From Acididesulfobacillus acetoxydans (GTDB lineage Bacteria > Bacillota > Desulfitobacteriia > Desulfitobacteriales > Desulfitobacteriaceae): a DNA stretch of 64,000 bases. Below the pieces are notes generated by a model. The model searched no databases. It was not told where the DNA came from and saw only the letters and a list, made by a program, of their open reading frames with translations. This document shows positions 2,652-24,035 of the stretch, one piece after another. Location of the stretch: assembly GCF_902729405.1 (NCBI RefSeq), contig NZ_LR746496.1, positions 1,736,001 through 1,800,000 on the forward strand, in the 5' to 3' direction. The translations under genes were made by a program, and so were the position numbers. Each line of letters begins with the position of its first letter. Position 1 is the stretch's first letter.

Positions 2652-2806
2652 TAACACCTCTCTTATTTATTTTAGATTTAGGACATTGGGTAGAAGTCAT
2701 TCAAAGAATTTCAAACCGTGTTCTCTCGAGCTGAACTAACAAATGGTTGGATGCCTGAAACTAGAAAATCGGTGGCGACATGAGGATGTCCTCCCTTCCA
2801 GAACCT

Positions 2807-4151: not shown

Positions 4152-4168
4152 ATAGGTTTCACCCCTCA

Positions 4169-5491: not shown

Positions 5492-5549
5492 GTAGGAGAT
5501 GACTGATGATTGGGGCCGCCGATTAGACTGGGAAAGAGGGAGGCTGACC

Positions 5550-6407
5550 ATGGATAGTGATTTTTTGTATATTAAACCCCCGTCACTTTCAGACCTCTTG
5601 AACCATTTGGAGTCCTGGGGAGAAAAAAGCAAAGTCTTGGCAGGGGGGACGGATCTCTTGGTTCTTTTGCGTCGTCATGACCTGAGTCCATCCTATGTTG
5701 TTGACATTAAGGGGATCGAGGAACTCCAAAGGCTGGAAGAAGTTGAGGGCGGGGATATCTTTTTGGGCGCAGGGCTTACGGTAAATGAAGCAGCTCATTC
5801 CGGCCTGGTGCAAAAACGTTATAAAGCCTTGGCTGATGCAGCCAATAAGCTGGCTTCTTATCAGCTGCGCAACCGGGCTACCGTGGTGGGAAACATCTGC
5901 AACGCTTCTCCGGGGGCGGATTTAGCGGGTCCCTTATTGGTCTTTGACGCGAAAGTACAGATTGTTTCGACCCAGGGGAAGCGTGAGGTTTTGCTTCAAG
6001 ACTTTTTTACCGGTGTGAAGAAGACGATTTTGCGTCCGCAAGAACTTCTCTACGGTCTTACCCTACCGGCTGTCACTGCGGGGGAACGCAGCATTTATCT
6101 CAAGCTAGCGCGTATTAAGGGGCATGACCTGGGAATCGTAGGCGTTGCGGGACGGTTGGACAGCCGGAAGAAGTTCCACTTGGCCATGTCTTCTGTCGCG
6201 CCGACCCCTCTGCGGCTCACGCGCCTGGAGGCGCTGCTCAATGGCTCGTCCCGGAGTGCGGAATTGCCGGATCAGGCCGCTGAGGCCGTGCAGGAGGAGA
6301 TTAGGCCGATTTCCGATGTGCGCGCTTCAGCTGCATACCGGCAGCATATGGCCGGGGTTCTCGTTAAACGCGTCGTCCAATACCTGGTTCAAGAAGGCGG
6401 TGAATAA
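5550..6407 (+). CDS. FAD-binding subunit of a xanthine-dehydrogenase-family molybdenum hydroxylase
   Basis: Medium subunit (CoxM/XdhB type, 285 aa) that takes electrons from the 2Fe-2S subunit onto FAD. AGGTDLLVLLRR near residue 35 and RNRATVVGNICNASPGADL near 110 are the two FAD-contacting loops of this family. The ATG at 5550 follows GGGAGG by 6 bases; an in-frame ATG at 5499 has its purine run too close, so the shorter form is taken. First gene of a long plus-strand operon; the next gene starts one base after its stop. The substrate of the holoenzyme is not readable from this subunit. Confidence 0.88.
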   Translation: MDSDFLYIKPPSLSDLLNHLESWGEKSKVLAGGTDLLVLLRRHDLSPSYVVDIKGIEELQRLEEVEGGDIFLGAGLTVNEAAHSGLVQKRYKALADAANKLASYQLRNRATVVGNICNASPGADLAGPLLVFDAKVQIVSTQGKREVLLQDFFTGVKKTILRPQELLYGLTLPAVTAGERSIYLKLARIKGHDLGIVGVAGRLDSRKKFHLAMSSVAPTPLRLTRLEALLNGSSRSAELPDQAAEAVQEEIRPISDVRASAAYRQHMAGVLVKRVVQYLVQEGGE

Positions 6408-6408
6408 G

Positions 6409-6945
6409 ATGTGTGCGGAGCATGAACATAAGGCTGCCCAGACATATCAGGATTCCGGTTTGCCTCGGGTACTTCTGAACTGCACGGTCAACGGGGAGAA
6501 CGTGTCACAGTGGATTGATCCGACTATGTCACTGCTGCACTTTTTACGCCACGAATTGAACTTGTTGGGTACAAAAGAGGGATGTGGAGAAGGCGAATGC
6601 GGAGCGTGCACGATCATTTTCAACGGCAGGGCCGTGAATTCCTGTCTGGTGCTGGCTCAGGAAGCGGAAGGAAGCCGGATTCTGACGGTGGAGGGTCTGG
6701 GTCAAGAAGGACAACTTTCCATCCTGCAGCAGGAGTTTATTAAAGAAGACGCCCTGCAATGCGGGTTCTGTACTCCGGGAATGTTGATGTCGGCGCGCGC
6801 CCTTTTAGACCGGAATCCTGAACCGGAGGAGGAAGAGATCAAGGAAGCTATAGCGGGCAACCTTTGTCGTTGTACGGGCTATTATCCGATTATTGAGGCG
6901 ATTAAGAAGGCTTCTGAGCGGGAAAAGGAGGCGAGTCAGCGATGA
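6409..6945 (+). CDS. 2Fe-2S subunit of the molybdenum hydroxylase
   Basis: Small iron-sulphur subunit (CoxS/XdhC type, 178 aa) relaying electrons from molybdopterin to FAD. Both cluster motifs are intact: the plant-ferredoxin-type CGEGECGACTI near residue 60 and the helical-domain set CGFCTPGM (near 120) with NLCRCTGYYP (near 155). The N-terminus has about 25 extra residues before the ferredoxin fold. Its TGA overlaps the ATG of the next gene (ATGA at 6942), so the two are translationally coupled. Confidence 0.92.
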   Translation: MCAEHEHKAAQTYQDSGLPRVLLNCTVNGENVSQWIDPTMSLLHFLRHELNLLGTKEGCGEGECGACTIIFNGRAVNSCLVLAQEAEGSRILTVEGLGQEGQLSILQQEFIKEDALQCGFCTPGMLMSARALLDRNPEPEEEEIKEAIAGNLCRCTGYYPIIEAIKKASEREKEASQR

Positions 6946-9335
6946 CGCTAGTGATGGAAGGAAGAAGCGAAGGAGCGATGAGGGAAGCGGGCTATCGTTA
7001 TGTGGGCCACTCCCCAGATCGTCAAGAGGCCCTAGAGAAGGTAACGGGACGGGCTCGGTATGTCCATGACATGGAACTTCCAGGTATGCTTTATGCCAAA
7101 ATGCTGCATTCTCCCTATGCTCATGCTGAAATTCTCTCCCTTGATGTGTCCGAAGCTAAAGCCTTGCCTGGGGTAAAAGCGGTGCTCACTGGCAGGGAGC
7201 TTCCGTATCTGCTGGGACTCTACATGGTGGATAAACCGATTTTGGCCCAGCATAAGGTCCGTTATCAGGGGGAACCTGTGGCCGCGGTGGCCGCTGTCGA
7301 TACCAGGACGGCCGCGAAGGCCTTGTCCCTGATTAAGGTTGAGTACCAGCCGCTTCCTGCCGTCTTGTCGGTGGAAGAGGCTTTGACAGGTGGGGTTTTG
7401 GTTCATGAGGATATCAACACCCTGGATTACGTCAAAGGGGTATTTTTCCCCCAACCCAACTCTAACATTGCTAGTTGGCACAAAACCATTAAAGGAGACA
7501 TTCAAAAAGGATTCGCCCAAGCGGAACTTACCATTGAGAACGAATGGCGCCTGCCCCAGGTTGCCCATGTTCCTTTGGAGACGCATGTCGTGATTGTTCA
7601 GGCGGATCCTTATTCGCCTAAAGTCAAGATTTGGTCTTCGTCCCAGTCTCCTTTTGCGGTGCGGAATCTGTTGGCTAAGGCCTTCGGCATTTCCCGGGGG
7701 GATATTACCGTAGTTGTGCCATATATCGGTGGAGGATTTGGCGGCAAGGCCGGGATTCATTTGGAACCGCTGGGTGTCGTGCTCTCGCGGGTTTGTCAGG
7801 GCCGTCCGGTAAAGATTCAGGCGACGCGGGAAGAGGAATTCAATCAATTGCCGACCCGGGAAGGGTTGAGAGGAAGAGTTAAAACCGGAGTGACTAAAGA
7901 CGGTAAGATCGTTGCCGAGGAAATCTATTTTGACTGGGACGGTGGTGCCTATGCGGACTACTCCGTTAATGTAGGCCGGGCCGCCGGGTATGCCGGCGCA
8001 GGTCCCTATGAAATTCCCAATATTGAATTGCATTCACGGACGCTCTATACCAACAAGGTATTTGGGACGGCCTATCGCGGCTTTGGCCATCTGGAAACGC
8101 ATTGGGTTATTGAACGGCAAATGGACTTGGCGGCGCAGGCTTTGGAGATGGATCCCTATGAGTTTCGAATGAAGAATCTTCTCAGGGAGGGTGCAACCAC
8201 GATCACGGGTGAAAAAATAACCGCTCATTCGGGGTGCGTGGATCAATGTCTGGAAGCGGTGGCGAAAGAGATTGCCTGGACCGGATACCAAAGCGCTGCG
8301 GAGCGGGAGAAAGCTTTCAAGACCGGCAAGGTGAGAGGTAAAGGCTTGGCTGTGCTGCATAAAGCTCCGGCGATGCCGCCTAACACGTCAACATCGGCGA
8401 TTATGCAGATGGATGAGGATGGGACCGTGCGTCTTTTGTTAGGTGCCATTGACATGGGGCAAGGGGCTTACACGACTATGGCTCAGATTGCGGCGGAAGT
8501 CCTGGATATGCCGCTGGAGAAAGTGAAAGTCATCTGGGAAAACGATACGGACAAAAATCCCTATGACTGGCAAACCGTGGCTTCGAAATATACCTTTATG
8601 GGAGGGAATGCCGTTATTCGCTGCGCTCAGGATCTTTTGCGCCAGATGAAAGAAGTGGCGGCCTGTGTGCTGCGCTGTCCCGTGGATGAATTGACGCATG
8701 GAAATGAGAGGATCCGCCATATTCAGCATCAAGATAAAGCCATTGCTTTTAAGGATCTGGCTTTGGGCTATGCCTATCAAAACGGAACGGGAATCGGGGG
8801 TCCGCTGATTGGCAGGGGAGTTTATATGGCAGAGGGTTTGACGAATCTGGACCCGGCGACAGGCCAAGGGTTGCCTGCCTTGGATTGGACGTACGGGGCG
8901 CATGGGGCTGAGATCGAAATCGACGTGGAGACCGGAGAGATCCATGTGCTTAAAATTGCCTCCGCCTTCGATGTTGGACAGGTGATCAACCGCAAGCTGG
9001 CCGTAGGACAAGTCGTGGGCGGGGTGATTCAGGGATTAGGCTCGGCCCTGATCGAAGGGTACAAATACAGCCCGGAGGGGCGGTTGCTGAATCCGTCTTT
9101 TACCGATAACAAGATTCCGACAGCCAAAGATATCCCAGATCGCGTCGTGCCAATTTTCATTGAGAATCCGCAACGTGACGGGCCTTTTGGGGCCAGGGGG
9201 GTGGGGGAACATCCCATGATTTCCGTGCCTTCCGTGCTGGCGAACGCGGTTTATGACGCTCTGGGGGTGAATTTCTACGAGCTTCCCCTCTCTCCGGAAC
9301 GGATTGTGTCGGGCTTGGCGCGTCAAAAAGAGTAA
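6942..9335 (+). CDS. Molybdopterin-binding catalytic subunit of a xanthine-dehydrogenase-family hydroxylase
   Basis: Large catalytic subunit (797 aa), which hydroxylates an N-heterocycle or aldehyde with water as oxygen source. Family motifs: the small domain at residues ~25-150, IGGGFGGKAGIH (~265), AYRGFGHLET (~370), IDMGQGAYTTM (~505) and GARGVGEHPM near 750, which carries the presumed catalytic glutamate. AYRGFG occurs across xanthine, CO, nicotinate and aldehyde enzymes, so the substrate is open. Context (cytosine deaminase, uracil permease, no allantoin genes) makes a pyrimidine such as uracil as likely as xanthine (inference). Confidence 0.9.
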   Translation: MTLVMEGRSEGAMREAGYRYVGHSPDRQEALEKVTGRARYVHDMELPGMLYAKMLHSPYAHAEILSLDVSEAKALPGVKAVLTGRELPYLLGLYMVDKPILAQHKVRYQGEPVAAVAAVDTRTAAKALSLIKVEYQPLPAVLSVEEALTGGVLVHEDINTLDYVKGVFFPQPNSNIASWHKTIKGDIQKGFAQAELTIENEWRLPQVAHVPLETHVVIVQADPYSPKVKIWSSSQSPFAVRNLLAKAFGISRGDITVVVPYIGGGFGGKAGIHLEPLGVVLSRVCQGRPVKIQATREEEFNQLPTREGLRGRVKTGVTKDGKIVAEEIYFDWDGGAYADYSVNVGRAAGYAGAGPYEIPNIELHSRTLYTNKVFGTAYRGFGHLETHWVIERQMDLAAQALEMDPYEFRMKNLLREGATTITGEKITAHSGCVDQCLEAVAKEIAWTGYQSAAEREKAFKTGKVRGKGLAVLHKAPAMPPNTSTSAIMQMDEDGTVRLLLGAIDMGQGAYTTMAQIAAEVLDMPLEKVKVIWENDTDKNPYDWQTVASKYTFMGGNAVIRCAQDLLRQMKEVAACVLRCPVDELTHGNERIRHIQHQDKAIAFKDLALGYAYQNGTGIGGPLIGRGVYMAEGLTNLDPATGQGLPALDWTYGAHGAEIEIDVETGEIHVLKIASAFDVGQVINRKLAVGQVVGGVIQGLGSALIEGYKYSPEGRLLNPSFTDNKIPTAKDIPDRVVPIFIENPQRDGPFGARGVGEHPMISVPSVLANAVYDALGVNFYELPLSPERIVSGLARQKE

Positions 9336-9348
9336 TGGGGAAAGAGGA

Positions 9349-10338
9349 ATGGTTGTGGTACAAGGGAAAGTTTGGGGTCGGGATTTTGCTCGACGCATCC
9401 GGGAAGAGGAGTTTGCAGTTCACAGTGTCTTTCAGAGCGTGTGCAATCTCCAGGCGGATCCGTCACAGCCCTTGTTGAGCCTAGTCAATAGAGCAGAAGC
9501 TCTGGCTCCCAATGCTTTGCTTGTAGAGGGGAGTTTGTTTCGTAAAGTTTGCCGAGTGGGGGAAAAGGTTCAGTTCTGGTCCCAAATCCTGATGAGCGGG
9601 GAGTATAGGGTGGATTGCCGGGGGGTGGCAGAGGAGGAACTTCAGGCTCCACTGCAACGCCAAGGCCAATCGCAGACCCAACTCCAACGTCAATTCCAAT
9701 CCCAATTCCGGTTAACTCCCCCCCGAAGCGGTCCGGCGGCACTGCAGGCGGTGGAGACTTGGCTGGAGATTCACTTTCCGGGTTTCCGGGCTGAATACAG
9801 TCCGCTGAGGCAGAGCCTGAGGAAGGCCCTGTTGAGGGAAGATGCGTCTCTACTGCATAACGTTTTAAGTAGGTTGATCGGTTCGGGTCCCGGATTAACG
9901 CCGGCCGGAGATGATTTCGCGGCAGGGGTGCTGTTAGCCTACACCCGGGGAATTCGTGCGGCGGCGTCCAAGGAAGGGTTGTCTCCTGTCAACAGTTCTA
10001 AAGCGGAGGTACCCGCAGTTACTGGGTGCCAAGAAGGGTTGTTACCCGGCGTTATCAGCGCTGGGCGCCGGGAGGGATTCTTCGCCGACATAGTCGGGAT
10101 CGCGCAGGCTTTACTGCCCTTGACGAATGCGATCAGCCAGACGATGCTGGTCTACGCCGTGCGGGGAGAAGGGGCTCTGTATGTCACGGGGGTCGTGGAC
10201 GGAATTTACGGCAATGCCGGAGATGTTGTCGCCGCGGCAGCAAAGCTGAGCCGTATTGGAGCATCATCCGGGCGTTACTTGCTAGCGGGCGTGCTATTAG
10301 GCTGCGAGGTCTATCAGACGAGATTCTCAAAATTTTAA
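9349..10338 (+). CDS. allH: DUF2877 protein, AllH/YlbF-type subunit of oxamate carbamoyltransferase
   Basis: About 329 aa. The signature GSGPGLTPAGDDFAAGVLLA near residue 185 identifies DUF2877. In E. coli the equivalent (YlbF/AllH) forms, with FdrA/AllF and YlbE/AllG, the three-part oxamate carbamoyltransferase, and here the three genes are adjacent. Residues ~102-122 are an unusual Q-rich insert (QRQGQSQTQLQRQFQSQF) coded by an imperfect repeat of CAA-TTC-CAA units. Start uncertain between ATG 9349 and GTG 9355, because GAGG lies immediately before the ATG. Confidence 0.8.
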   Translation: MVVVQGKVWGRDFARRIREEEFAVHSVFQSVCNLQADPSQPLLSLVNRAEALAPNALLVEGSLFRKVCRVGEKVQFWSQILMSGEYRVDCRGVAEEELQAPLQRQGQSQTQLQRQFQSQFRLTPPRSGPAALQAVETWLEIHFPGFRAEYSPLRQSLRKALLREDASLLHNVLSRLIGSGPGLTPAGDDFAAGVLLAYTRGIRAAASKEGLSPVNSSKAEVPAVTGCQEGLLPGVISAGRREGFFADIVGIAQALLPLTNAISQTMLVYAVRGEGALYVTGVVDGIYGNAGDVVAAAAKLSRIGASSGRYLLAGVLLGCEVYQTRFSKF

Positions 10339-10359: not shown

Positions 10360-11910
10360 ATGAAAGAGAAAATCATCGTTCAGGCCAATCGTTATGCGGA
10401 TTCAGTAACCCTGATGCTGGTCTCCCAGAGGGTTCAGCAGCTGCCTGGAATTGAAGCGGCGTTAGTGGGGATGGGTAGCCCCTTGAACCTGGATGTGCTG
10501 CAAACTCTGGATTTTCAGGAAGAAATCAGCGCCGGAGCCAATGATTTGATCATTGCTCTGCGCGGGAGGGATGACGATGCCGTCCAGAACGCGTTGGATC
10601 AGATGGAGGCTCTGATGCGGGTGCAGGGAACTTCCAGTTCCGGTCAGGCCGAGGAGCGGCCCAAGTCATTGGTTCAGGCTTTAGCCAAGCAAAAGGGCAA
10701 TTTGGCTTTGATCTCTGTCCCGGGGGTTTACGCGCCCAGGGAGGCCCGCAAGGCTTTGGAACAAAATCTTCATGTGATGTTGTTCAGCGACAATGTCTCC
10801 CTGGCAGACGAGGTTGAACTAAAGAAACTGGCGCACAGCCGGGAGCTTTTGCTCATGGGACCTGACTGCGGCACCGCAATCCTGAACGGGGTGCCGCTGG
10901 CGTTTGCCAATGTGGTGCGCAGGGGTGTAATTGGCATCGTGGCCGCTTCGGGAACCGGGGCGCAAGAGGTCAGCGTTCAGATTGACCGGATGGGTCAAGG
11001 AGTGTCCCAAGCGATTGGCACGGGTGGGCGTGATCTGCACGAGGCTGTGGGTGGGATCATGATGCTGGATGGGATTGAGGCGCTGCGACAGGATCCGGAG
11101 ACCAAGGTTATCGTGGTCGTCTCCAAACCCGCGGCCCCGGCTGTCGCGGCTAAAGTCCTTAGGGCTTTGTCAGAGAGCGGAAAACCCTCGGTGCTCTGCG
11201 TGATCGAGTCGAAGGGAGGGATCCGGGGGAATGCAGAGGTGACGGTTGCCCGTAATTTGCTGGAAACGGCTCAAAAGGCGGTGCAGTTGGCCGGGGGAGC
11301 AGCGATTCCCCAAAAGTCCGCCGACCAGGCGGAAATTTATGGATTTGCTTCAGCTTTGCGTCCTGAGCAAAAATATGTGCGCGGTCTTTTTTCCGGAGGG
11401 ACGCTTTGCGATGAGGCGATGGCAATACTGAGCGAGAAATTGGGGCTTATATATTCTTATGGCCCACTCGATCCGGCGGGTCAGTTGCCCGATCCGAATA
11501 AATCCTTCCAAAACACGGTGCTGGATCTGGGTGATGATTTTTTTACCGTCGGCCGGCCCCATCCGATGATCGATTTAACGTTGCGTAAACAAAGGATAAT
11601 AGAAGAGGCCAAGGATCCGGAAGTTGCGGTTATCTTGCTAGATGTCGTTTTGGGATACGGCGCTCACCCGGATCCGGCCGGCGAGTTGGTGCCTGTGCTG
11701 GTTGAGGCCCGGGGGAAAGCGGCGGGAGGCAGCGGAGGCAGTGTCGTGTTTGTCGCCTATGTCTGCGGAACGGCCGGGGATCCTCAAGATTACAACAAAC
11801 AGGTTAAGGCTCTGCAAGAAGCGGGTGTCAGAGTCTTTGCCTCAAACGTCGAAGCGGCAGAGTTTACAGCGGGAATCTTGGAGGCAGCACAGGGAGGTGG
11901 ACAACGATGA
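10360..11910 (+). CDS. fdrA: FdrA/AllF, acyl-CoA-synthetase-like subunit of oxamate carbamoyltransferase
   Basis: 516 aa, normal for FdrA. Rossmann-type CoA-ligase folds like succinyl-CoA synthetase: VPGVYAPREARKAL near 130, LLLMGPDCGTAILNGVPLAF near 165-185 and VGIVAASGTGAQEVSVQ-like sequence near 195-210. With the neighbouring AllH and AllG types it should catalyse phosphorolysis of an N-carbamoyl amide (oxalurate in E. coli) to carbamoyl phosphate. Overlaps the next gene by 4 bases (ATGA). The true substrate here is inferred, since no allantoin genes are nearby. Confidence 0.88.
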   Translation: MKEKIIVQANRYADSVTLMLVSQRVQQLPGIEAALVGMGSPLNLDVLQTLDFQEEISAGANDLIIALRGRDDDAVQNALDQMEALMRVQGTSSSGQAEERPKSLVQALAKQKGNLALISVPGVYAPREARKALEQNLHVMLFSDNVSLADEVELKKLAHSRELLLMGPDCGTAILNGVPLAFANVVRRGVIGIVAASGTGAQEVSVQIDRMGQGVSQAIGTGGRDLHEAVGGIMMLDGIEALRQDPETKVIVVVSKPAAPAVAAKVLRALSESGKPSVLCVIESKGGIRGNAEVTVARNLLETAQKAVQLAGGAAIPQKSADQAEIYGFASALRPEQKYVRGLFSGGTLCDEAMAILSEKLGLIYSYGPLDPAGQLPDPNKSFQNTVLDLGDDFFTVGRPHPMIDLTLRKQRIIEEAKDPEVAVILLDVVLGYGAHPDPAGELVPVLVEARGKAAGGSGGSVVFVAYVCGTAGDPQDYNKQVKALQEAGVRVFASNVEAAEFTAGILEAAQGGGQR

Positions 11911-13316
11911 GCATCCGGGATTTGTTTGCGACAGAGCTGGCGGTGATCAACCTTGGGATTCCGTCCTTTTATGACGATCTTTTACGCCAGGGACTGCCGG
12001 TGCTTCAAGTTGACTGGAAGCCCCCGGCCGGAGGAGATCCGGAAATGGTCGCCGCCTTGGAAAAATTGGAAACCGTGCGGGACAAAGTTGAGGCAGGGAA
12101 CCGGGAAGCTTTCCGGCGCTTGAGTGAAGCCCATCCCTATTTAGAGGGAATCGGAACGGCCCGTGATCTTATCCCAGGGCTGGGGGAACATATGTTGTTG
12201 CATGCCGGGCCGCCCATCTCTTGGGAACATATGAGCGGACCGGTGCGGGGTGCGGTCATCGGGGCTATTCTCTATGAGGGCTGGGCCCAGTCGGCGGAAG
12301 ATGCGGAGAAAATGGCCTCCTCCGGGGGGATTGCCTTCAGCCCCGCCCATGAACACAACGCCGTCGGTCCGATGGCCGGCATCGTATCTCCGTCTATGCC
12401 TGTCTTTATCATCCATAACCGCACCCATGGCAATTATGCGTACTGTACTCTTAACGAAGGCTTGGGCAAGGTTTTGCGTTTTGGAGCGTTTGGCGCTGAT
12501 GTCCTGGAGCGGTTGAAATGGATGGCGGAAGAGCTGGCTCCGGCCTTGAAAAAAGCTCTCGAACTCTCCGAAGGCATTGATCTCAAGGGCCTGATGGCGC
12601 AAATGCTGCACATGGGAGATGAGGGGCACAACCGAAATAAATCTGGGACGTCTTTGTTTTTCAGGATCATCGCGCCTTTGCTGCTGAAAGCGGACCTTGA
12701 GCCCCAAACGGTACGGCGGTGTCTGGAGTTTATCGACAGCAATGACCACTTTTTCTTAAATCTCTCCATGCCGGCCTGCAAGGCGATGCTCGATGCGGCG
12801 GCCGGGGTCGAATATAGCACCCTAGTCACGGCGATGACCCGAAATGGGACGGATTTTGGCCTACGGGTTGCCGGAACGGGGAGTCGCTGGTTTACCGCTC
12901 CGGCCAACTATGTGGAAGGACTTCTCTTTCCCGGGTTTACGGCACAAGATGCCAACCCAGATCTAGGCGACAGCGCGATTACGGAAACATGCGGCTTGGG
13001 AGGGTTTGCTATGGCCGCGGCCCCGGCTATTGTGCAGTTTGTGGGCGGGACGGCGTCCATGGCCTTGGAGTTCAGTCATTTGATGTATCAGATAACTTAC
13101 GGCGAAAATGCCGTCTTCACGATTCCAGCCTTGAACTTCCGGGGCACGGCGACGGGGATTGACGTGCGCCAAGTGGTCGAGTTGGGAGTGCTGCCGGTCA
13201 TCAATACCGGTATTGCCCACCGTGAGGCCGGGGTCGGCCAGGTCGGAGCGGGTCTGGTGAGGCCTCCCATGGCCTGTTTTGAAAAAGCCTTATCTGCTTT
13301 AGCGGAAACTATTTGA
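11907..13316 (+). CDS. allG: YlbE/AllG (DUF1116) subunit of oxamate carbamoyltransferase
   Basis: 469 aa, full length for DUF1116. Recognisable blocks are LQVDWKPPAGGDPEM near residue 35, the HMSGPVRGAVIGAILYEGWA region near 107 and HNRTHGNYAYCTLNEGLGKV near 170. Begins inside the fdrA stop codon, so expression is coupled. It follows the fixed pairing fdrA-ylbE known from E. coli. A 67-base gap follows before the cyclase gene, with an AAGGAG site for that gene. Confidence 0.88.
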   Translation: MSIRDLFATELAVINLGIPSFYDDLLRQGLPVLQVDWKPPAGGDPEMVAALEKLETVRDKVEAGNREAFRRLSEAHPYLEGIGTARDLIPGLGEHMLLHAGPPISWEHMSGPVRGAVIGAILYEGWAQSAEDAEKMASSGGIAFSPAHEHNAVGPMAGIVSPSMPVFIIHNRTHGNYAYCTLNEGLGKVLRFGAFGADVLERLKWMAEELAPALKKALELSEGIDLKGLMAQMLHMGDEGHNRNKSGTSLFFRIIAPLLLKADLEPQTVRRCLEFIDSNDHFFLNLSMPACKAMLDAAAGVEYSTLVTAMTRNGTDFGLRVAGTGSRWFTAPANYVEGLLFPGFTAQDANPDLGDSAITETCGLGGFAMAAAPAIVQFVGGTASMALEFSHLMYQITYGENAVFTIPALNFRGTATGIDVRQVVELGVLPVINTGIAHREAGVGQVGAGLVRPPMACFEKALSALAETI

Positions 13317-13383: not shown

Positions 13384-14169
13384 ATGCTTAAACACTGGGA
13401 TCAAGTACAAATGTATGACCTGACGCAGAAACTGAGCCACCTGACCCCGCCTTGGCCGACGTACGAGCCTCTGCAAATCAAATTTTTCAAACGTCTTAGC
13501 TCCAACGGTGCCAATGGGCAGGTGATTACCACATCCAACCATGTGGGCACTCATTTGGACGGCTCGCTCCATTTTTGTACGCACGGTCGGGATATTGCGG
13601 CGATTCCCCTGGAGGATTTGATTGGAGAAGCTGTCGTGGTCGACCTGAGTGACATCGCTGAGGATTACGGAATTTACACATCCCAGGATATTATGAAGAG
13701 GGTCGAAGTCAAAAAGAGGGATATCTTGCTCATCAACACAGGCTATCATAAATATGGCTGGGACCAGCCTGAGGCGGACGAAGTGCGTTATATGGTGAAG
13801 CATCCGGGGCCGACGAAGGAATTTTCGGCCTGGTGCCGACAAATGGAATTCAAGTGGGTCGGGGTGGATTGCGGTTCTGCGGACCATCCGATGAATACGA
13901 AAATTAGAGAATGGGCACCGCGTGAAGCCAGGGAGTGTGAGGCTTACTTTCAGGAGAAATATGGCAAATCCCTTGATGACATTTTTCCGCCACAGGATTA
14001 TCAGCTGATGCACGTTGATCTTTTCCCGTACAACATCATTCATGCCGAGAATTTAGGGGGAGAAATCGATAAAGTGTTGAATAAACGCCTGATCGCGGGT
14101 TGTTACCCGTGGCGTTTTGAAGGCGGAGAGTCTTCGATCTGTCGGATCGTCGCTTATGATGAAAAGTAA
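13384..14169 (+). CDS. Cyclase/kynurenine-formamidase-family metal hydrolase
   Basis: 261 aa member of the cyclase (isatin hydrolase / kynurenine formamidase) family, which hydrolyses N-formyl groups or cyclic amides. The metal-binding HxGTHxD..H motif is intact (SNHVGTHLDGSLHF near residue 55). Later blocks match family layout, with DILLINTGYHKYGW near 115 and VGVDCGSADHPMNT near 160. AAGGAG lies 8 bases before the ATG. Placed between the OXTCase-type genes and carbamate kinase; its last 11 bases overlap the kinase start. A role in opening an oxidised pyrimidine ring is attractive but unproven. Confidence 0.85.
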   Translation: MLKHWDQVQMYDLTQKLSHLTPPWPTYEPLQIKFFKRLSSNGANGQVITTSNHVGTHLDGSLHFCTHGRDIAAIPLEDLIGEAVVVDLSDIAEDYGIYTSQDIMKRVEVKKRDILLINTGYHKYGWDQPEADEVRYMVKHPGPTKEFSAWCRQMEFKWVGVDCGSADHPMNTKIREWAPREARECEAYFQEKYGKSLDDIFPPQDYQLMHVDLFPYNIIHAENLGGEIDKVLNKRLIAGCYPWRFEGGESSICRIVAYDEK

Positions 14170-15112
14170 GGCACAGCAAACGTTGGTCTTGGCATTTGGC
14201 GGGAATGCTATTACAAAAGAAGGACAGAAAGGAAGCTTCAGCGAGCAACTGGAAAATATTGAAGCAAGCTGCCGCCAAATTACCGGTTTAGCCTTGGCGG
14301 GGCATCATATGGTAATTACCCACGGGAATGGTCCCCAAGTTGGAAGTTTGCTTATCAAAAACGAGCTGGCTAAGGATATCGTTCCCCCGATGCCCTTGGA
14401 TGTCTGTGGAGCGAATACTCAGGGATCACTTGGCTATGCTATCGTGCAGACGCTGCAAAACATGCTGCGCAAGTCCGGAAATCCTCGTGAACTGGTCGCC
14501 CTCATGACCCGGAGCGTGGTGGATCCGGCGGATCCGGCGTTTCAGAATCCGACGAAGCCTGTAGGCCCGTTCTTTACGCGGGAACAAGCGGAAGAACTGA
14601 TCCGGCTGTATGCTTACCATATGCGGGAGGACAGCGGTCGGGGATGGCGGCGGGTGGTGCCCTCGCCGCGTCCGGTAGCAATTCTGGAGCGAAGCGTGAT
14701 TCAAGGACTGGTGGAAAACGGTGTCATCGTGGTAGCTGTCGGGGGTGGCGGCATACCGGTGAGTGATAAGGAGGGAAGATATATCGGGATCGAGGCCGTG
14801 ATCGACAAGGATCTGGCGGCTGAAAGATTGGCTCAGGATATTAAGGCAGATGTTTTCGCGATTTTGACAGGAGTGCGTAAGGTCTGTCTGGATTACAGGA
14901 AACCGGGTCAAAAGGATCTTGATGTTCTGCGCGCTTCCGAGGCCACGGAATATTTGGCCCAAGGACAATTTCCTTCCGGAAGCATGGGACCTAAAATCGA
15001 GGCGGCTGTGCATTTCGTCGAACACAGCGGCAATCCGGTGATTATCACCGACTTTGAGCATGTTCAGGCGGCTTTAAACGGTCAGGACGGAACAAGGATT
15101 ATACCTGATTAG
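14159..15112 (+). CDS. arcC: Carbamate kinase
   Basis: Transfers phosphate from carbamoyl phosphate to ADP, giving ATP, ammonia and CO2. About 317 aa, typical. Motifs: FGGNAITKEGQKGSF at the N-terminus, THGNGPQVGSLLIKNE near 55, AVGGGGIPVS near 200 and SMGPKIEAAVHFVE near 280. An ATG one codon upstream (14156) is equally possible. Overlaps the cyclase gene. Next to FdrA-type proteins this is the AllK role: harvesting the carbamoyl phosphate they release as ATP. Confidence 0.93.
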   Translation: MKSKAQQTLVLAFGGNAITKEGQKGSFSEQLENIEASCRQITGLALAGHHMVITHGNGPQVGSLLIKNELAKDIVPPMPLDVCGANTQGSLGYAIVQTLQNMLRKSGNPRELVALMTRSVVDPADPAFQNPTKPVGPFFTREQAEELIRLYAYHMREDSGRGWRRVVPSPRPVAILERSVIQGLVENGVIVVAVGGGGIPVSDKEGRYIGIEAVIDKDLAAERLAQDIKADVFAILTGVRKVCLDYRKPGQKDLDVLRASEATEYLAQGQFPSGSMGPKIEAAVHFVEHSGNPVIITDFEHVQAALNGQDGTRIIPD

Positions 15113-15724: not shown

Positions 15725-16408
15725 ATGGCAGTATTGGACAAAATGGAAGCTCAATTGCGACCGGTGGAAACCCCTATGGTCCCTTATCCCGCGAAGTACA
15801 TTACCCAAGCTTCAGGGGAAAAGTTAGTGGTTCATCAATTGAGCCGGGACGATGTCCCTCACTTGCTGAAAGCGATCCAGCCTTTGACCACGGTGGAAAA
15901 GGATTTCTACGATGTGGTGGCCTGCCGGGTGGTGTCCGAGCTCGTGGGCTGGCTGCGCTACCGGGTGAAAGACGAGTACTGTTTGCTCGGCACCGTGAAC
16001 GGCGAGATTGTGGGCATGGTAAACGGACGGATGCTGACGGAAAAAATCGGTATGTCATATCACACCTTGGCGATTAGGCAGGGCTTGCGCCTGGGGGCTC
16101 AGTTATTTGCCGCCAAAATGGAATATCACATGGATTTTCTTAAACAGGATGAAGTGTGGGTGGTGGCAGAAAGCCCTAACGGTTTTAAGCGCTGGATGAT
16201 CGAGTACGAACTTGAACCGCGTTTTGAGCAATGGCATGAACTGGGGGGAGTTCCGACCTACGTATTGACCCGTAAACTATGGGAAAAGCACAAAGCCGCA
16301 AAATGCGGCGGTCGGCGTCCGGTGCCGGAGGAGCTGATGGCTGTGGCCAAACAGATGATTCTTCCGTCCACATACGGCCAGATCCCAGGTTATCGGAGAG
16401 AAGCGTAA
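15725..16408 (+). CDS. Probable GNAT-like protein of unknown role
   Basis: 227 aa. The middle (DEYCLLGTVNGEIVGMVNGR near residue 80-100) has the beta4-beta5 look of a GNAT acetyltransferase, followed by AIRQGLRLGAQLFAAKMEYH, which would be the acetyl-CoA-binding helix. The characteristic R/Q-x-x-G-x-G/A is only approximate (RQGLRLGAQ), so enzymatic activity is uncertain. Preceded by AGGAGA. It sits between the nitroreductase and thiolase-like genes on the same strand and probably belongs to the same transcription unit after a 114-base gap. No specific function recognised. Confidence 0.55.
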   Translation: MAVLDKMEAQLRPVETPMVPYPAKYITQASGEKLVVHQLSRDDVPHLLKAIQPLTTVEKDFYDVVACRVVSELVGWLRYRVKDEYCLLGTVNGEIVGMVNGRMLTEKIGMSYHTLAIRQGLRLGAQLFAAKMEYHMDFLKQDEVWVVAESPNGFKRWMIEYELEPRFEQWHELGGVPTYVLTRKLWEKHKAAKCGGRRPVPEELMAVAKQMILPSTYGQIPGYRREA

Positions 16409-16472
16409 AAAGGGGAGAACGGCGAAAAGAAGGGTACGGAGAAGGGGAGAGTGGTGAGGAGGGATGACGGCG

Positions 16473-17684
16473 ATGAGAGGAGAACAGCGCTTGCGAGAAG
16501 TAGGAATTGTGGGCGTGGGACATCCGCCCTTCGGGAAGTACGAAGGTTCTTTGATGGACATGCTATGTGAGGCGGCTGTGGAAGCCCTGGATGACGCGGG
16601 CGTTAAGACCGGTGCGGGCCATGGGGTGGACCAAGTGCTCGTTTCGACTATGGGTGGCTCACAGGTAAACCGTCAAACCGGGGTGGCCTCGGCTCTGGTC
16701 GATAGCCTGAATTTGCGTCCGGCCATGGCGGAAACGGTAGAAAACGGTCCCGCCTCAGGAGCCTCGGCGGTCAAGCTGGGATACATGGCTATTGCCAGCG
16801 GCATGTGCGATGTGGTGCTCGTGGTCGGCGGGGAGAGAATGCGGGTTCTGAGCGGCTGGGAGGCGACGGATTTTGTGGCGACTATGCTTCACCCCGAGGC
16901 GGAGTATGCTTACGGCCTGACCCTGCCCTCCTTTGCCGGGATGTTCACCCGGCTGATCATGGCCAAGTACGGAGTGACGGAGCGGGATTTAGCCATGGTA
17001 TCGGTCAAGAACCACGAGAATGCTATGTTTAATCCGTCAGCTCATATCCAATTAGTGCCAAACCTGGAGGCGATCACGGAAGACGAGGATGCTCTGACGA
17101 TCAACCCGTATGTTGCCGAACCCCTGCATCTTTATGATACTTGCCCGGTTTCGGACGGAGCGGCGGCGGTTGTGCTGTGCGCCTTGGATGTACGGGAACG
17201 CTTTGCCCGCCGGCCGATCAAGATCGCCGGGATCGGTCAGGCGACGGACACGCATGTCGTGGCCGAGCGGGAAGTCCCTACGGATCTTTTGGCTGTTCGC
17301 CTCGCCGCAAAGCGGGCTTATGCCATGGCCGGCCTGGAGCCTCAGGACATTGACGTGGCGGAGCTGCACGATGCCTTTACCATCCTGGAAGTTGTCGAGT
17401 CAGAAGAGGTGGGGTTCTTCCCACGGGGAGAAGGACACCTGGCGGTGCGGCGCGGAGAGACGCGCATCGGCGGAAGGATCCCAATCAATACCTCAGGGGG
17501 GCTGAAAGCCAAGGGGCATCCTCTGGGAGCCACGGGTGTCTCTCAAATCATCGAGCTGGTCAAACAGCTACGGGGAGAAGCCCACGGGCGCCAAGTCAAA
17601 GGGGCCAAAGCCGGTTTGGCCGTGAATTTCGGCGGTTTTGGCAACAATGTGGTGGCCACGATCCTTGCCGGGGAGGAGGAGTAA
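16473..17684 (+). CDS. Thiolase-family protein (SCP-x/archaeal type) with proline in place of the catalytic cysteine
   Basis: About 403 aa thiolase-fold protein. Conserved C-terminal blocks are present: DVAELHDAFTILEVVE near residue 290 and GGLKAKGHPLGATGVSQ near 345, which supply the oxyanion and base histidines. At the nucleophile position, where thiolases have CxSG, the sequence reads ENGPASGASA: codon CCC at 16749-16751 gives Pro93. The start at 16473 has AGGAGG 10 bases upstream; ATG 16464 is too close to it. The next gene is a DUF35 protein, the usual partner of this thiolase class (archaeal acetoacetyl-CoA thiolase, BbsAB). A non-thiolytic acyl-CoA-binding role is possible. Confidence 0.85.
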   Translation: MRGEQRLREVGIVGVGHPPFGKYEGSLMDMLCEAAVEALDDAGVKTGAGHGVDQVLVSTMGGSQVNRQTGVASALVDSLNLRPAMAETVENGPASGASAVKLGYMAIASGMCDVVLVVGGERMRVLSGWEATDFVATMLHPEAEYAYGLTLPSFAGMFTRLIMAKYGVTERDLAMVSVKNHENAMFNPSAHIQLVPNLEAITEDEDALTINPYVAEPLHLYDTCPVSDGAAAVVLCALDVRERFARRPIKIAGIGQATDTHVVAEREVPTDLLAVRLAAKRAYAMAGLEPQDIDVAELHDAFTILEVVESEEVGFFPRGEGHLAVRRGETRIGGRIPINTSGGLKAKGHPLGATGVSQIIELVKQLRGEAHGRQVKGAKAGLAVNFGGFGNNVVATILAGEEE

Positions 17685-17685
17685 G

Positions 17686-18027
17686 ATGGATAGGGAAATG
17701 GTGGCTTATCAGTGCAGCCGGTGCGGAGAACTCCATCATCCTCTCCACTATGTCTGTCGGAAATGCGGGGGGCGGGATTTTGCGGAAGTTCCTTTGCGCG
17801 GAGAGGCAACGCTTCTGACCTGGACCAAAGTCTATAATCTGCCGGAAGGCTATATGAAACCCTTCCTTGGATTCGGTATCGTGGAATTCGGAAACGGACT
17901 GAGAGTGGCCGGGCAGCTTGAAGTGGATCAACCCGAATGCGGAATGAAGGTGCGAGCTAAGGTTGACGTTGTCCGGGAGGGGATCGGCCAAGATTATTAT
18001 GGGTTTATCTTTATTCAAAAGGAGTAA
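17686..18027 (+). CDS. DUF35 zinc-ribbon/OB-fold protein
   Basis: 113 aa. The N-terminal rubredoxin-like zinc ribbon has two CxxC pairs (CSRCGELHHPLHYVCRKCG, residues ~9-27), followed by an OB fold (LLTWTKVYNLPEGY, then LRVAGQLEVDQ). DUF35 proteins bind acyl-CoA and scaffold thiolases or HMG-CoA synthases. It starts one base after the thiolase stop with an AGGAGG site inside the end of that gene, so the two should form one complex. Confidence 0.88.
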   Translation: MDREMVAYQCSRCGELHHPLHYVCRKCGGRDFAEVPLRGEATLLTWTKVYNLPEGYMKPFLGFGIVEFGNGLRVAGQLEVDQPECGMKVRAKVDVVREGIGQDYYGFIFIQKE

Positions 18028-18416: not shown

Positions 18417-19688
18417 ATGATGTTTAAAAAGGTCTATGACATTGAAGATGTCCCTCCGCTAAGTAAAGCGATACCCTTGTCTTTTCAACATGTCTTTGCT
18501 ATGTTCGGGGCCACGATTCTCGTTCCGCTGCTCACTAAAATGGACCCATCCGTGACTTTGTTTGCGTCGGGGCTGGGCACACTGATCTTTCATTTAATCA
18601 CCCGAGGGAAAGTTCCGGCCTATTTAGGTTCATCTTTTGCCTTTATCGCACCGATCATCGCAGCGTCCAAAGCCTATGGAGCCCAAGGAGCCTTTACGGG
18701 GATGATAGCGGCAGGCTTTATATACTTGATCGTGTTTGGTATCATTGCGTTGGTGGGGTTGAACTGGCTCAACAGAGTTCTGCCCCCGATCGTCGTGGGT
18801 CCTGTCGTCATGATTATCGGTTTAAGCTTGACACCTACCGCGATCTCGGAGGCCAGCAAGGGCTTGCTCACGGCTTTTGTGACGGCAGGGATCGTTGTGG
18901 TGGCTAATATCTTCGCCAAAGGTTTTCTGAAGATTATTCCCATCCTGCTAGGGACCGTTGGGGGATATCTTTTTGCCATCACCCAGGGGCAGGTCAACTT
19001 CGAGACGATCAATCATGCGGCTTGGTTTGCTTTCCCCAACCTGACCATCGTTACGGGACATATGCCGGTGATTGCTTGGGGGGCGGTGAGTCTGATCGCA
19101 CCTATAGCCATTGCGACAATGGTTGAGGATGTCGGGCACCTCTTGGTGATTGGGGACACGGTGGGCCGGGATCTCATGCATAAGCCCGGTCTCCATAAAG
19201 TGTTGCTGGCCAATGGCGTGGCGACCATGTTGTCCGGATTTTTAGGCGGGGTTCCCGAAACGACCTATGGAGAGAATATCGGGGTTTTGGCGATCACGCG
19301 CGTGTTCAGTTCCCGGGTGATTCAAGGAGCTGCCGTGATTGCGATTCTTCTGAGCTTCATTGAAAAGGTGGGTGCCGCCATCCAGACGATTCCGCAACCC
19401 GTTCTCGGCGGGATTACGATCATCCTCTACGGGATGATTGCTTCCGTCGGTCTGCGCAACTTGGTGGAGAATAAAGTTAACCTGGCGAGCAACCGGAACC
19501 TGCTGATTGCTTCCATCATTTTCACCCTAGGCGTGGGCGGCATCAATATCCCTATTGGACAGTATTCTTTTGAAGGGGTAGGGCCGGCTGCGGTGATTGG
19601 TATTCTCCTCAACTTGGTTTTGCCTAGGGAAAAAAATGAGTCCGAGGAGGTGGGTTCTTCGTCAGGATCAGGTGTTTCTGCGGGTTAG
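18417..19688 (+). CDS. uraA: Uracil permease (NCS2 family, UraA/PyrP type)
   Basis: 423 aa membrane protein with about 12-14 hydrophobic segments. VPAYLGSSFAFIAPI near residue 65 and GGVPETTYGENIGVLAITRV near 285 are the UraA versions of the substrate-binding signatures; xanthine permeases carry QNVG-type sequence instead, so uracil is the better call. The charged C-terminal tail is short. It sits in line after the thiolase/DUF35 pair but behind a 389-base gap, so it may have its own promoter. It complements the CodB-like permease at the other end of the island. Confidence 0.88.
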   Translation: MMFKKVYDIEDVPPLSKAIPLSFQHVFAMFGATILVPLLTKMDPSVTLFASGLGTLIFHLITRGKVPAYLGSSFAFIAPIIAASKAYGAQGAFTGMIAAGFIYLIVFGIIALVGLNWLNRVLPPIVVGPVVMIIGLSLTPTAISEASKGLLTAFVTAGIVVVANIFAKGFLKIIPILLGTVGGYLFAITQGQVNFETINHAAWFAFPNLTIVTGHMPVIAWGAVSLIAPIAIATMVEDVGHLLVIGDTVGRDLMHKPGLHKVLLANGVATMLSGFLGGVPETTYGENIGVLAITRVFSSRVIQGAAVIAILLSFIEKVGAAIQTIPQPVLGGITIILYGMIASVGLRNLVENKVNLASNRNLLIASIIFTLGVGGINIPIGQYSFEGVGPAAVIGILLNLVLPREKNESEEVGSSSGSGVSAG

Positions 19689-19896: not shown

Positions 19897-19990
19897 TTGG
19901 TTACACCTGCTTTCGTCGATCCCCATATACACCTAGATAAAACACTAATTACGGTGCCCACCGGGGCTGTCGCCGGCGAAAGTAGTTTAG
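19897..19990 (+). pseudogene. N-terminal scrap of an amidohydrolase (cytosine-deaminase-like)
   Basis: About 30 codons read VTPAFVDPHIHLDKTLI, the metal-binding N-terminal strand of cytosine-deaminase/amidohydrolase proteins (HxH-LDK). The similarity ends abruptly near 19990, where an IS200 TnpA tail in another frame takes over. It probably is the relic of a second deaminase gene that once followed the uracil permease. Not functional. Confidence 0.65.
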
Positions 19991-22346: not shown

Positions 22347-24035
22347 ATGATTAGAAAAAGCGGCGTTACGGTAGGGGATGTCCTGGGACTCGAATGCATG
22401 AAAGGGGTTAAGGTTCTGGCCGGGCAGAACGGACTGGAGAGAAGTGTAACTAATGTAAATATCATGGAAGTCCCGGATATTTATAATTGGGTCAATGCGG
22501 GTGATCTCCTGTTGACTACGGCTTATTCTATTCGTGATGATCGTGAAGCACTGATTGAGCTGATTCCCAAACTGGCGAACCAAGGCCTGGCCGGTTTAGC
22601 TTTAAAACCCAAACGTTATTTGGAGTATGTTCCGCAGGAAATGATCGAGCAGGCGAACCAAATGGATTTTCCACTCCTTGAGTTACCTGTTGAGACTTCT
22701 TTTGCCGATGTTTTGAATCCGATTTTAAGCGAAATTTTACAGATGCATACAGCGTTTTTTGAGAAATCAGAAAAGGCCAATCGGTTTTTTATGGAAGTCA
22801 TTTTAAAAGGAGGGGGCATAACCGATATCGTCGCAAAGTTAGCTGAGGTTATCGATAACACTGTCGTGATCTATAATCCGGATAATGAAGTCCTGGCTAA
22901 GCACTTTGTCAATTGGGACGCGTCGGCTTGGGAAGAGGCCGCTAAACGGGTTAAGGATGTCGAAGTACGGGTTATAAACCCCTCTGATTCAGGAGTGAAT
23001 TATTATGTTACTACGATGGAAACAGAGCCGTATCTGCAGGAATTTAGGATGCCCATCATCGTCAGAGGTCAGGTGAGTGGTTATCTTTCGGTTTGGGATA
23101 ATCAACGTGCGTTAACTCAGACGGATTTCATTTTTATTGAGCGCGCGATGACGATCGCGGCTTTGGAGTTGTTGAACCAGCGCACCCTGCTGGAAGTTGA
23201 GAGACGCCACCGTAACGATTTTATTGGTGATCTACTCCAGGAGGCAAAAATCGAGGAGAAAAGTTTGAAAGAGAGAGCCCGCTATCTTGGCTGGGATTTA
23301 AATTGCAATTATGCGGCCTTGGTGGTTGATATCGATAATTTTTTAGGCTTTGCCAGCAAAGGCCGCCAAGATGAGCAGTCTATCCAGGAAGCAAAGGATT
23401 ATTTATTTAACCAGATTATGGAGGCTATACACAAAGATGAACCGAGTATTGTGGGTACAAAAAGTGACAGTATTATTTTATTGCTTTCTCATCCCGAAAG
23501 AATAACCAAGGAAAAAATCGATGCCTATTTCAAGTTGCGGAGCCAAGAGATTTTGAATTTTATAAGCAAGAAGGTTAAAGATTTTACTATTTCCATAGGC
23601 GTCGGAAGATATTACCCAGGTATACCCGGTCTGCGCAAGAGCTATAAAGAAGCGCTTCAAGCGCTGGGGGTAGGTAAGGTACTTTTTGGGCAAAACCAAT
23701 TGGTCTTTTTTTCTGAGCTCGGTATCTACCGTTTACTGCAGCAGGTGCCAAATCGGGAAGAATTAGAACTGTTTTATAAAGAGACGGTTGCCCCTTTGGA
23801 TGATCATGATATGAAATGTCACGGCGATTTACTCAAAACACTGGAGACGTTCTTTGAGTATCACGGGAATTTGAAACAAGTTTCCCAGGTGCTCTTTGTC
23901 CATTACAATACGGTTCTCTACAGAGTCGAACAAATTCGGGAGATTACAGGTCTGGACCTAAAATCGGCTGAAAATAGGCTTAATCTGCAAATTGGCTTAA
24001 AGATACGGAAAATATTGCGACAGAAGGATAAGTAA
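22347..24035 (+). CDS. PucR-family transcriptional regulator
   Basis: 562 aa, full-length PucR/CdaR architecture. The N-terminal PucR domain (VGDVLGLECMKGVKVLAG, then NWVNAGDLLLTTAYSI) spans residues ~1-125. A long middle includes a degenerate GGDEF-like CdaR domain (FTISIGVGRYYPGIPGLRKS near 415), and the C-terminal HTH_30 (NLKQVSQVLFVHYNTVLYRV) spans ~510-535. Regulators of this class activate purine or other catabolic genes on sensing a metabolite. It lies between the chemoreceptor and the UroD-type methyltransferase, all on the plus strand; its target is not known. Confidence 0.92.
   Translation: MIRKSGVTVGDVLGLECMKGVKVLAGQNGLERSVTNVNIMEVPDIYNWVNAGDLLLTTAYSIRDDREALIELIPKLANQGLAGLALKPKRYLEYVPQEMIEQANQMDFPLLELPVETSFADVLNPILSEILQMHTAFFEKSEKANRFFMEVILKGGGITDIVAKLAEVIDNTVVIYNPDNEVLAKHFVNWDASAWEEAAKRVKDVEVRVINPSDSGVNYYVTTMETEPYLQEFRMPIIVRGQVSGYLSVWDNQRALTQTDFIFIERAMTIAALELLNQRTLLEVERRHRNDFIGDLLQEAKIEEKSLKERARYLGWDLNCNYAALVVDIDNFLGFASKGRQDEQSIQEAKDYLFNQIMEAIHKDEPSIVGTKSDSIILLLSHPERITKEKIDAYFKLRSQEILNFISKKVKDFTISIGVGRYYPGIPGLRKSYKEALQALGVGKVLFGQNQLVFFSELGIYRLLQQVPNREELELFYKETVAPLDDHDMKCHGDLLKTLETFFEYHGNLKQVSQVLFVHYNTVLYRVEQIREITGLDLKSAENRLNLQIGLKIRKILRQKDK

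Follow-up and report, generated by a model that had tools for sequence, protein, structure and literature searches.

The window, a stretch of 64,000 nucleotides from Acididesulfobacillus acetoxydans (contig NZ_LR746496.1, positions 1,736,001 to 1,800,000), carries a gene cluster in the order XdhB, XdhC, XdhA, AllH, FdrA, AllG, cyclase-family hydrolase, and carbamate kinase, the last being followed by genes for a nitroreductase-like protein, a GNAT-fold protein, a thiolase, a ChsH2/DUF35-like protein, and an NCS2 permease (Table 1). The opposite strand encodes cytosine deaminase, 2.8 kb from XdhB, together with a PreA-like protein and a regulator of the PurR type. The XdhA-like subunit scored below every NCBIfam equivalog cut-off (530.9 of 780 bits for the XdhA model). 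The cyclase ORF extends from ATG 13384 to TAA 14167-14169 on the forward strand and encodes 261 aa; an AAGGAG ribosome-binding site lies a few bases 5′ of this ATG (the program-made ORF list begins the gene at GTG 13375 instead). AllG (11907-13316) ends 67 bp before the cyclase start, and the ATG of carbamate kinase, at 14156 or 14159, results in an overlap of 11-14 bp with the cyclase ORF. The placement of the gene in the initial annotation, between AllG and carbamate kinase and overlapping the ORF of the latter, was thus confirmed, as were the neighbors FdrA, AllG, and AllH.

Table 1. Features of the cyclase gene cluster and its flanks, with positions in the window (paired values are score and model cut-off in bits).
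Feature	Position	Strand	Basis
Cytosine deaminase	1386..2657	-	NF006685 569 of 483, NF005748 522 of 438 bits
PreA/dihydroorotate dehydrogenase-like protein with 4Fe-4S domain	3036..4208	-	PreA 261.7 of 335 bits; PF01180
LacI/PurR-type regulator	4169..5197	-	PF00356, PF13377
Mo-hydroxylase FAD subunit (XdhB-like), start uncertain (ORF from 5499)	5544..6407	+	PF00941, PF03450
Mo-hydroxylase 2Fe-2S subunit (XdhC-like), start uncertain	6400..6945	+	PF01799, PF00111
Mo-hydroxylase large subunit (XdhA-like), proposed uracil 6-hydroxylase	6942..9335	+	PF20256, PF02738, PF01315
AllH-like subunit, start uncertain	9352..10338	+	PF11392 55.7 bits
FdrA/AllF-like subunit	10360..11910	+	NF004760 479.4 of 433 bits
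AllG-like subunit, proposed ureidomalonate carbamoyltransferase with AllF and AllH	11907..13316	+	PF06545 333.6 bits; AllG tree by module
Cyclase-family hydrolase, proposed barbiturase (barbiturate to ureidomalonate)	13384..14169	+	PF04199, fold model, gene context
Metal and catalytic motif H53-x3-H57-x-D59-x3-H63	13540..13572	+	Invariant in 69 aligned sequences
H210 (= LaIHA His207) to E222 (= LaIHA Gln219 / KynB Glu172)	14011..14049	+	Invariant; spacing and alignment
Carbamate kinase	14156..15112	+	TIGR00746 384 of 358 bits
GNAT-fold protein, linked to thiolase and ChsH2-like protein	15725..16408	+	pLDDT 88; Z 14.4 to GNAT proteins
Thiolase-family protein	16464..17684	+	PF22691, PF00108
ChsH2/DUF35-like Zn-ribbon OB-fold protein	17686..18027	+	PF01796, PF12172
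NCS2 permease, uracil type	18417..19688	+	Uracil permease model 423.9 (cut-off 477); xanthine permease 201.6 (cut-off 414)
PucR-family regulator	22347..24035	+	PF07905, PF13556

PF04199 (Cyclase) was the single Pfam family found on the protein (117.5 bits versus a cut-off of 23.1), and PF09663, the AtzD/barbiturase family, did not match it in the Pfam search. Its sole NCBIfam match was arylformamidase TIGR03035 (50.1 bits versus a cut-off of 223.05). An alignment of 69 sequences, comprising the window and 68 of its best 80 relatives (69-97% identity to the window), contained 91 invariant columns at a mean column identity of 80%; at the sequence level, the subfamily is strongly conserved over several phyla (as labelled in the sequence records). 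The PF04199 metal motif, HxGTHxD...H, is present in this alignment. The metal motif, described as intact in the initial annotation, is so across all aligned sequences: H53, H57, D59, and H63 in SNHVGTHLDGSLHF, as well as H210 and E222, are invariant. According to the excerpt available of the isatin hydrolase study, the equivalents of H53, H57, and D59 are the metal ligands of that enzyme, and its catalytic His79 and His207 correspond to H63 and H210 (PMC6117287). E222 is located 12 residues past H210, the same spacing as between His207 and Gln219 in isatin hydrolase A; the equivalence of both residues to those of LaIHA and KynB was set by spacing and alignment rather than by coordinate superposition. 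Whether a KynB-type glutamate marks activity toward linear amides is left open in the same excerpt (PMC6117287).

The AlphaFold2 model of the cyclase (pLDDT 83.4; residues 21-70 weak) bore out the expected fold: in VIA-align, the top 13 rows (Z 15.7-20.3) were all cyclase-type chains and the next row had a Z of only 7.2. Isatin hydrolases came first (Z 20.1-20.3; 4j0n at Z 20.3 with an rmsd of 3.0 over 214 residues), ahead of KynB (18.0-18.4) and other cyclases (15.7-19.3). By sequence, the best PDB match was KynB (4cog, 3.7e-9; by profile 4co9, 6.1e-10), and KynBs outscored isatin hydrolases in the profile search (38-42 versus at most 27 bits). The relation to isatin hydrolase proposed in the initial annotation therefore holds at the level of the fold but not of the signature, because GLQC/GLAS is absent and replaced by HAENLGG; an assignment as isatin hydrolase was rejected for this reason. 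Kynurenine formamidase was likewise rejected. TIGR03035 scored far below its cut-off, and in a tree of 49 cyclases (built without isatin hydrolase), the AllG-linked family, down to ∼41% identity, is set apart by one branch with a support of 100/99, outside of which fall KynB, 1r61, the second cyclase of the window genome, and the remaining cyclases. The neighbors differ as well: clustering beside tryptophan genes had been named as the case against a new enzyme, and no tryptophan-catabolism gene is among the annotated recurrent neighbors. The I(L/I)E motif of KynB is replaced by HAE in the cyclase, with the glutamate itself common to both. Seven residues (K33, K36, R37, N44, Q46, N171, and H220) do not vary across the 24 core rows of the tree, are kept in most of the 13 intermediate rows, and are rare in the 12 outside rows, making them candidates for binding the ureide.

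Tandem cyclases were also encountered. A 554-aa ORF (L164, 9154-10815) contains two cyclase domains, and its genome has a separate FdrA-AllG-XdhBCA locus (L212). Two further loci (L166, 8550-10160; L167, 8306-9913) encode tandem pairs of distant cyclases with 27-30% identity to that of the window, and AllG is not adjacent there.

The distribution of the cyclase was assessed in a phylum sample in which the same 299 genomes were searched with each query. The cyclase profile matched 105 of them, but the best scores split into 31 genomes with at least 258 bits and all others with at most 71 bits. AllG (PF06545), present in 44 of the 299, was found in 30 of the 31 genomes with the cyclase (at least 258 bits) versus 14 of the other 268 (Fisher p 2e-29, kinship ignored); the lone cyclase genome without AllG, G254, is fragmented. 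Physical linkage was followed in 80 loci, the best 80 of 147 relatives from one scan of genome contigs (67-97% identical), which biases the set to close relatives. Together with the window, tblastn counts gave AllG in 65 of 81 loci, FdrA in 64, XdhA in 47, NCS2 in 45, PucR in 39, family III CoA-transferase in 32, carbon-nitrogen hydrolase in 24, the GNAT protein in 19, carbamate kinase in 17, and thiolase in 16. AllG lies directly 5′ of the cyclase in 53 of these 81 loci, the remainder including contigs that end nearby, and no AllG is in view in 16 of 81, several of them on short contigs. (In an ORF-based comparison, the cyclase was masked at some loci by a short overlapping ORF on the opposite strand, cluster c19; the tblastn count is unaffected.) Even cyclases only 41-46% identical (L160, L161, and L162) are still clustered with FdrA, AllG, and XdhABC, and in two cases with the carbon-nitrogen hydrolase as well. 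Housekeeping genes adjacent to the cyclase at L038, L040, and L046 are uninformative, and an ornithine-carbamoyltransferase gene immediately 3′ of the cyclase at L071 exceeds the cut-off of the ordinary OTC model (337.9 of 280.9 bits) and was taken as biosynthetic and likewise uninformative.

In the 14 AllG genomes lacking the cyclase, the gene clusters around AllG were inspected. The AtzD-type family PF09663 occurs in nine of the 299 genomes, eight of which have AllG and none of which has a cyclase of at least 258 bits. Among the 44 AllG genomes, 30 have the cyclase, eight AtzD, none both, and six neither; this exclusion is significant (Fisher p 1.7e-5, kinship ignored). At seven loci, the AtzD/TrzD family gene is situated beside or near AllG (three were scored directly, at 425-560 bits). 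Because AtzD takes the place of the cyclase near AllFGH, the cyclase, too, should act on a cyclic ureide, opening it to an N-acylurea that AllFGH would then use, which supports the earlier suggestion of a new ring opener for cyclic ureides. That no AtzD-type protein is there to take this step holds for the window's own genome, in which PF09663 had no match. However, the replacement does not name the ring, since AtzD there is closest to cyanuric acid hydrolase (for L145, the Moorella enzyme 6bum, 742.6 bits), on which barbiturate is described as acting as an inhibitor in the available excerpt (PMC6557486).

The AllG proteins themselves differ between modules. The AllG tree follows the modules (12 label changes versus 24.1 in shuffles), and genomes G171 and G187 have, besides the cyclase-linked copy, a second copy of AllFG beside an AllB-like gene, belonging to a different AllG clade. 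The genes accompanying AllG were compared between 24 cyclase-linked loci and 22 others, the latter from 23 rows in which one genome, G205, stands twice (without cyclase: 14 rows, 13 loci); the window and G094, in which the AllG ORF was not called, are outside this comparison.

If barbiturate were opened, phosphorolysis of the product would leave malonamate, which needs removal of the amide and CoA activation; the product of a cyanurate route (urea or similar) needs neither. Genes for such steps were found. A carbon-nitrogen hydrolase is present in 11 of the 24 cyclase-linked loci versus none of the 22 others, and a family III CoA-transferase in five versus two, which is a slight difference. 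A malonate decarboxylase operon comes after the cyclase at L034 (mdcA 887/789, acyl carrier 94/84, beta 339/228, and gamma 271/237 bits/cut-off, with mdcG and mdcB just below their cut-offs), and L039 has a homologous operon in identical order. At L015, mdcA (785.8 of 789.2 bits) adjoins AllG and FdrA, and 3-5 kb separate it from the cyclase, uridine phosphorylase, and the carbon-nitrogen hydrolase. Malonate decarboxylase genes within these three cyclase clusters point to malonate rather than oxalate as the carbon product. Across the phylum sample, MdcA exceeded 200 bits in only two of 299 genomes, in one of them (G254) on a single 3.9-kb contig with the cyclase; this co-occurrence is not significant (one of two; p 0.20), and the argument for malonate therefore rests on physical linkage. 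Canonical malonyl-CoA decarboxylase (PF05292) was found in none of the 30 cyclase genomes, but as the control genomes gave no match either, this absence carries no weight. The window genome has no good counterpart of the relatives' carbon-nitrogen hydrolase (best 31% identity), only a 29.8-bit partial match to MdcA, and a CoA-transferase (46% identity) located elsewhere.

These observations bear on the possibility that the cyclase is a parabanate hydrolase, in which case the Mo-hydroxylase would convert hydantoin to parabanate, the cyclase would release oxalurate, and AllFGH would be a true oxamate carbamoyltransferase. Such a route would agree with the activity of E. coli AllFGH, which turns oxalurate into oxamate and carbamoyl phosphate according to the excerpt available (PMC11326118), and the relatives' family III CoA-transferase scores best on the CoA:oxalate model, albeit below its cut-off. 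Yet oxalyl-CoA decarboxylase was above its cut-off in none of the 30 cyclase genomes (sub-cut-off matches in 20), which argues against a route via parabanate, oxalurate, and oxalate, and malonate decarboxylase operons occur in cyclase clusters. The neighbors are pyrimidine genes, and G171 and G187 keep their second AllFG, beside the AllB-like gene, in another clade. We therefore regard parabanate as an unlikely substrate. Similarly improbable is that the cyclase acts as a linear amidase on malonamate or ureidomalonate, the ring being opened by another enzyme. E222 is a KynB-type glutamate and the substrate of KynB is a linear formamide, which would suit this assignment; it is at odds with the mutual exclusion between the cyclase and the ring-opening AtzD family, and for a linear amide, the carbon-nitrogen hydrolase is the better candidate. 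As the latter is present in only 24 of the 81 loci (window and best 80 of 147 relatives), the cyclase is the sole hydrolase common to the clusters.

The genes upstream in the presumed order of reactions point to pyrimidines. XdhA is present in 19 of the 24 cyclase-linked AllG loci versus two of the 22 others, indicating that an oxidation precedes the cyclase, a step required for making barbiturate from uracil but not for a cyanurate route. Within the window and the best 80 of 147 relatives, uridine phosphorylase is encoded directly 3′ of the cyclase at 10 of 81 loci (two of four copies scored were above the TIGR01718 cut-off and two just below), and cytosine deaminase is found in eight, including the window. 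An apparent fusion of uridine phosphorylase and hydrolase at L015 was discarded as a wrong ORF call, there being two genes in different frames. No XDH was present at the loci with uridine phosphorylase within the flanks covered, and four of them carry a homolog of aldehyde ferredoxin oxidoreductase. The initial annotation had left barbiturate, parabanate, and hydantoins as candidate rings; uridine phosphorylase, cytosine deaminase, the uracil-type permease, and malonate decarboxylase narrow the choice to barbiturate as the most likely ring.

Pyrimidine genes would also surround a cyclase that opens dihydrouracil in the reductive pathway, followed by phosphorolysis of carbamoyl-β-alanine. A PreA-like gene indeed adjoins cytosine deaminase in the window, and the window genome encodes, elsewhere than in the cluster, a dihydropyrimidinase-type protein above its cut-off, so uracil could also take the reductive route in this organism, possibly served by the deaminase and the permease as well. 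With that protein, however, the genome already has a dihydropyrimidinase/hydantoinase of its own; PreA-like genes are present in merely three of 81 loci versus 47 for XdhA (window and best 80 of 147 relatives), and the reductive route does not yield malonate, all of which renders this assignment very unlikely. Hardly credible, finally, is a xanthine amidohydrolase of the anaerobic purine pathway: purine clusters typically contain an XDH-like enzyme, an NCS2 permease, and a PucR regulator, but a purine substrate is at odds with uridine phosphorylase, cytosine deaminase, the uracil-type permease, and malonate decarboxylase, and the xanthinase pathway has its own identified gene cluster according to the excerpt available (PMC12507026).

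Four further genes recur near cyclase clusters (L070 13175-13984, L077 12091-12894, L073 14931-15551, and L051 12454-13476). Three of these four contain XdhC/CoxI-, MobA-like, or molybdopterin-binding domains, and the one at L070 has no Pfam match; such genes would be consistent with a working Mo enzyme. The aldehyde ferredoxin oxidoreductase homolog is encoded in cyclase clusters in which no Mo-hydroxylase is visible (L038, L040, L045, and L046), where a tungsten enzyme might oxidize uracil.

The oxidative pyrimidine route, leading from uracil via barbiturate to ureidomalonate, is known from a few aerobic bacteria, in which it employs an AtzD-type barbiturase. Judged from gene context, the PF04199 cyclase is quite probably a barbiturase unrelated to the AtzD family and acts at the center of an energy-conserving, oxidative uracil pathway in anaerobes. 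Uracil would be supplied by cytosine deaminase, uridine phosphorylase, or the uracil permease and oxidized to barbiturate by the XDH-like molybdenum hydroxylase, which the aldehyde ferredoxin oxidoreductase homolog might replace in some lineages. The cyclase would then open barbiturate by hydrolysis of its cyclic imide, giving ureidomalonate (N-carbamoyl-malonamate). By analogy with the mechanism of isatin hydrolase, a divalent metal bound by H53, H57, D59, and probably E222 would activate water, assisted by H63 and H210. Ureidomalonate being the one-carbon homolog of oxalurate, an AllF-AllG-AllH-type enzyme could phosphorolyze it to malonamate and carbamoyl phosphate, from which carbamate kinase would yield ATP, CO2, and NH3. 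Malonamate would be converted to malonate, in many relatives probably by the carbon-nitrogen hydrolase, and malonate would next be taken up either by the family III CoA-transferase, for activation, or by malonate decarboxylase; the families of these enzymes are clear, and their order is the one that we propose.

Beyond the cyclase itself, we lean toward a wider interpretation, held as a whole, in which these clusters encode an undescribed anaerobic fermentation of pyrimidines: uracil would be oxidized, rather than reduced, to barbiturate by a Mo- or W-enzyme, a barbiturase with a fold unrelated to that of the known family would open the ring, and ureidomalonate would be phosphorolyzed by an AllFGH-type carbamoyltransferase, with one ATP gained per ring and malonate as the outcome. 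It would extend over Bacillota, Thermotogota, Elusimicrobiota, Atribacterota, and Auribacterota (phyla as labelled in the records). AllFGH would be a general module for the phosphorolysis of N-acylureas with exchangeable ring openers, namely the cyclase for barbiturate, AtzD for cyanurate, and the allantoin enzymes for oxalurate.

The closest mechanistic precedent, by analogy, is isatin hydrolase, a Mn-dependent PF04199 enzyme that hydrolyzes a cyclic amide and shares with the cyclase the fold, the size, and the H/H/D/H and H210 residues, but is only 20-22% identical in the structural alignment and has Gln219 (IHA) at the position of E222. The nearest substrate precedent, on the same footing, is dihydrophloroglucinol cyclohydrolase from Clostridium scatologenes, a Mn-dependent cyclase-family enzyme that opens a cyclic 1,3-dione within an anaerobic catabolic cluster, as far as the available excerpt describes it (PMC10470551). 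It is of the PF04199 type, and barbiturate is a cyclic 1,3-dicarbonyl as well; by description, however, it cleaves a C-C bond, unlike the C-N bond proposed for the cyclase, and the gene clusters differ. KynB, although the best sequence match, is shorter (about 210 versus 261 aa), and the annotated recurrent neighbors of the cyclase include no kynurenine genes. The AtzD barbiturase/cyanuric acid hydrolase family (PF09663) shares the proposed reaction and the slot near AllFGH in other genomes, but is unrelated in family and fold, and a member is reported in the available excerpt to use a Ser-Lys dyad (PMC4051656). E. coli AllFGH and AllK form a downstream module of families identical to those in the window; there, oxalurate is derived from allantoin, whereas the entry in the window consists of cyclase and Mo-hydroxylase, and AllG is placed elsewhere in the tree.

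Within the open-licence literature in PMC, which leaves most subscription papers outside, neither a cyclase-family barbiturase nor such a pathway was found. The available excerpt of the AllFGH paper mentions neither barbiturate nor the cyclase (PMC11326118), and another source, as far as excerpted, treats AllFGH solely within allantoin degradation (PMC3364942). The pyrimidine routes named in a further excerpt are the oxidative, reductive, Rut, and URC pathways, the xanthinase gene cluster being separate (PMC12507026). Uracil is set free wherever RNA decays. If the proposal is correct, a second, unrelated barbiturase, together with formation of carbamoyl phosphate, would turn the oxidative route into an ATP-yielding anaerobic fermentation; a sharply conserved cyclase subfamily, unnamed in databases, would obtain a function; and the recently solved AllFGH enzyme would be extended from oxalurate to other N-acylureas.

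Several minor observations concern related modules and the flanks of the cluster. Near AllFGH at L145, L149, L150, L154, L156, L157, and L158, an AtzD-type amidase is encoded, in many cases accompanied by carbamate kinase and a permease of the NCS2 family. Their gene content suggests that cyanurate may be fermented through carbamoyl transfer at these loci, a possible physiological role of cyanuric acid hydrolase. The yahE-yahJ region of E. coli K-12 (L084, 3926-10508) holds a second set of AllH-F-G, kinase, and amidohydrolase (YahE, F, G, I, and J), and close relatives of E. coli YahF (66%) and YahG (75%) are encoded at L147. No Pfam family matched the GNAT-fold protein of the window (15725-16408); a resemblance to GNAT-type decarboxylases was considered, and the modeled fold is indeed that of GNAT, but the nearest structures are acetyltransferase-like proteins. 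Its gene is tied to the thiolase and the ChsH2-like gene in the same type of cluster in Clostridium and others. Just 3′ of the permease, at 19897-19953, a fragment of 19 codons resembles cytosine deaminase (74% identity, E 8e-5) and is likely a pseudogene remnant beside the intact gene at 1386-2657.
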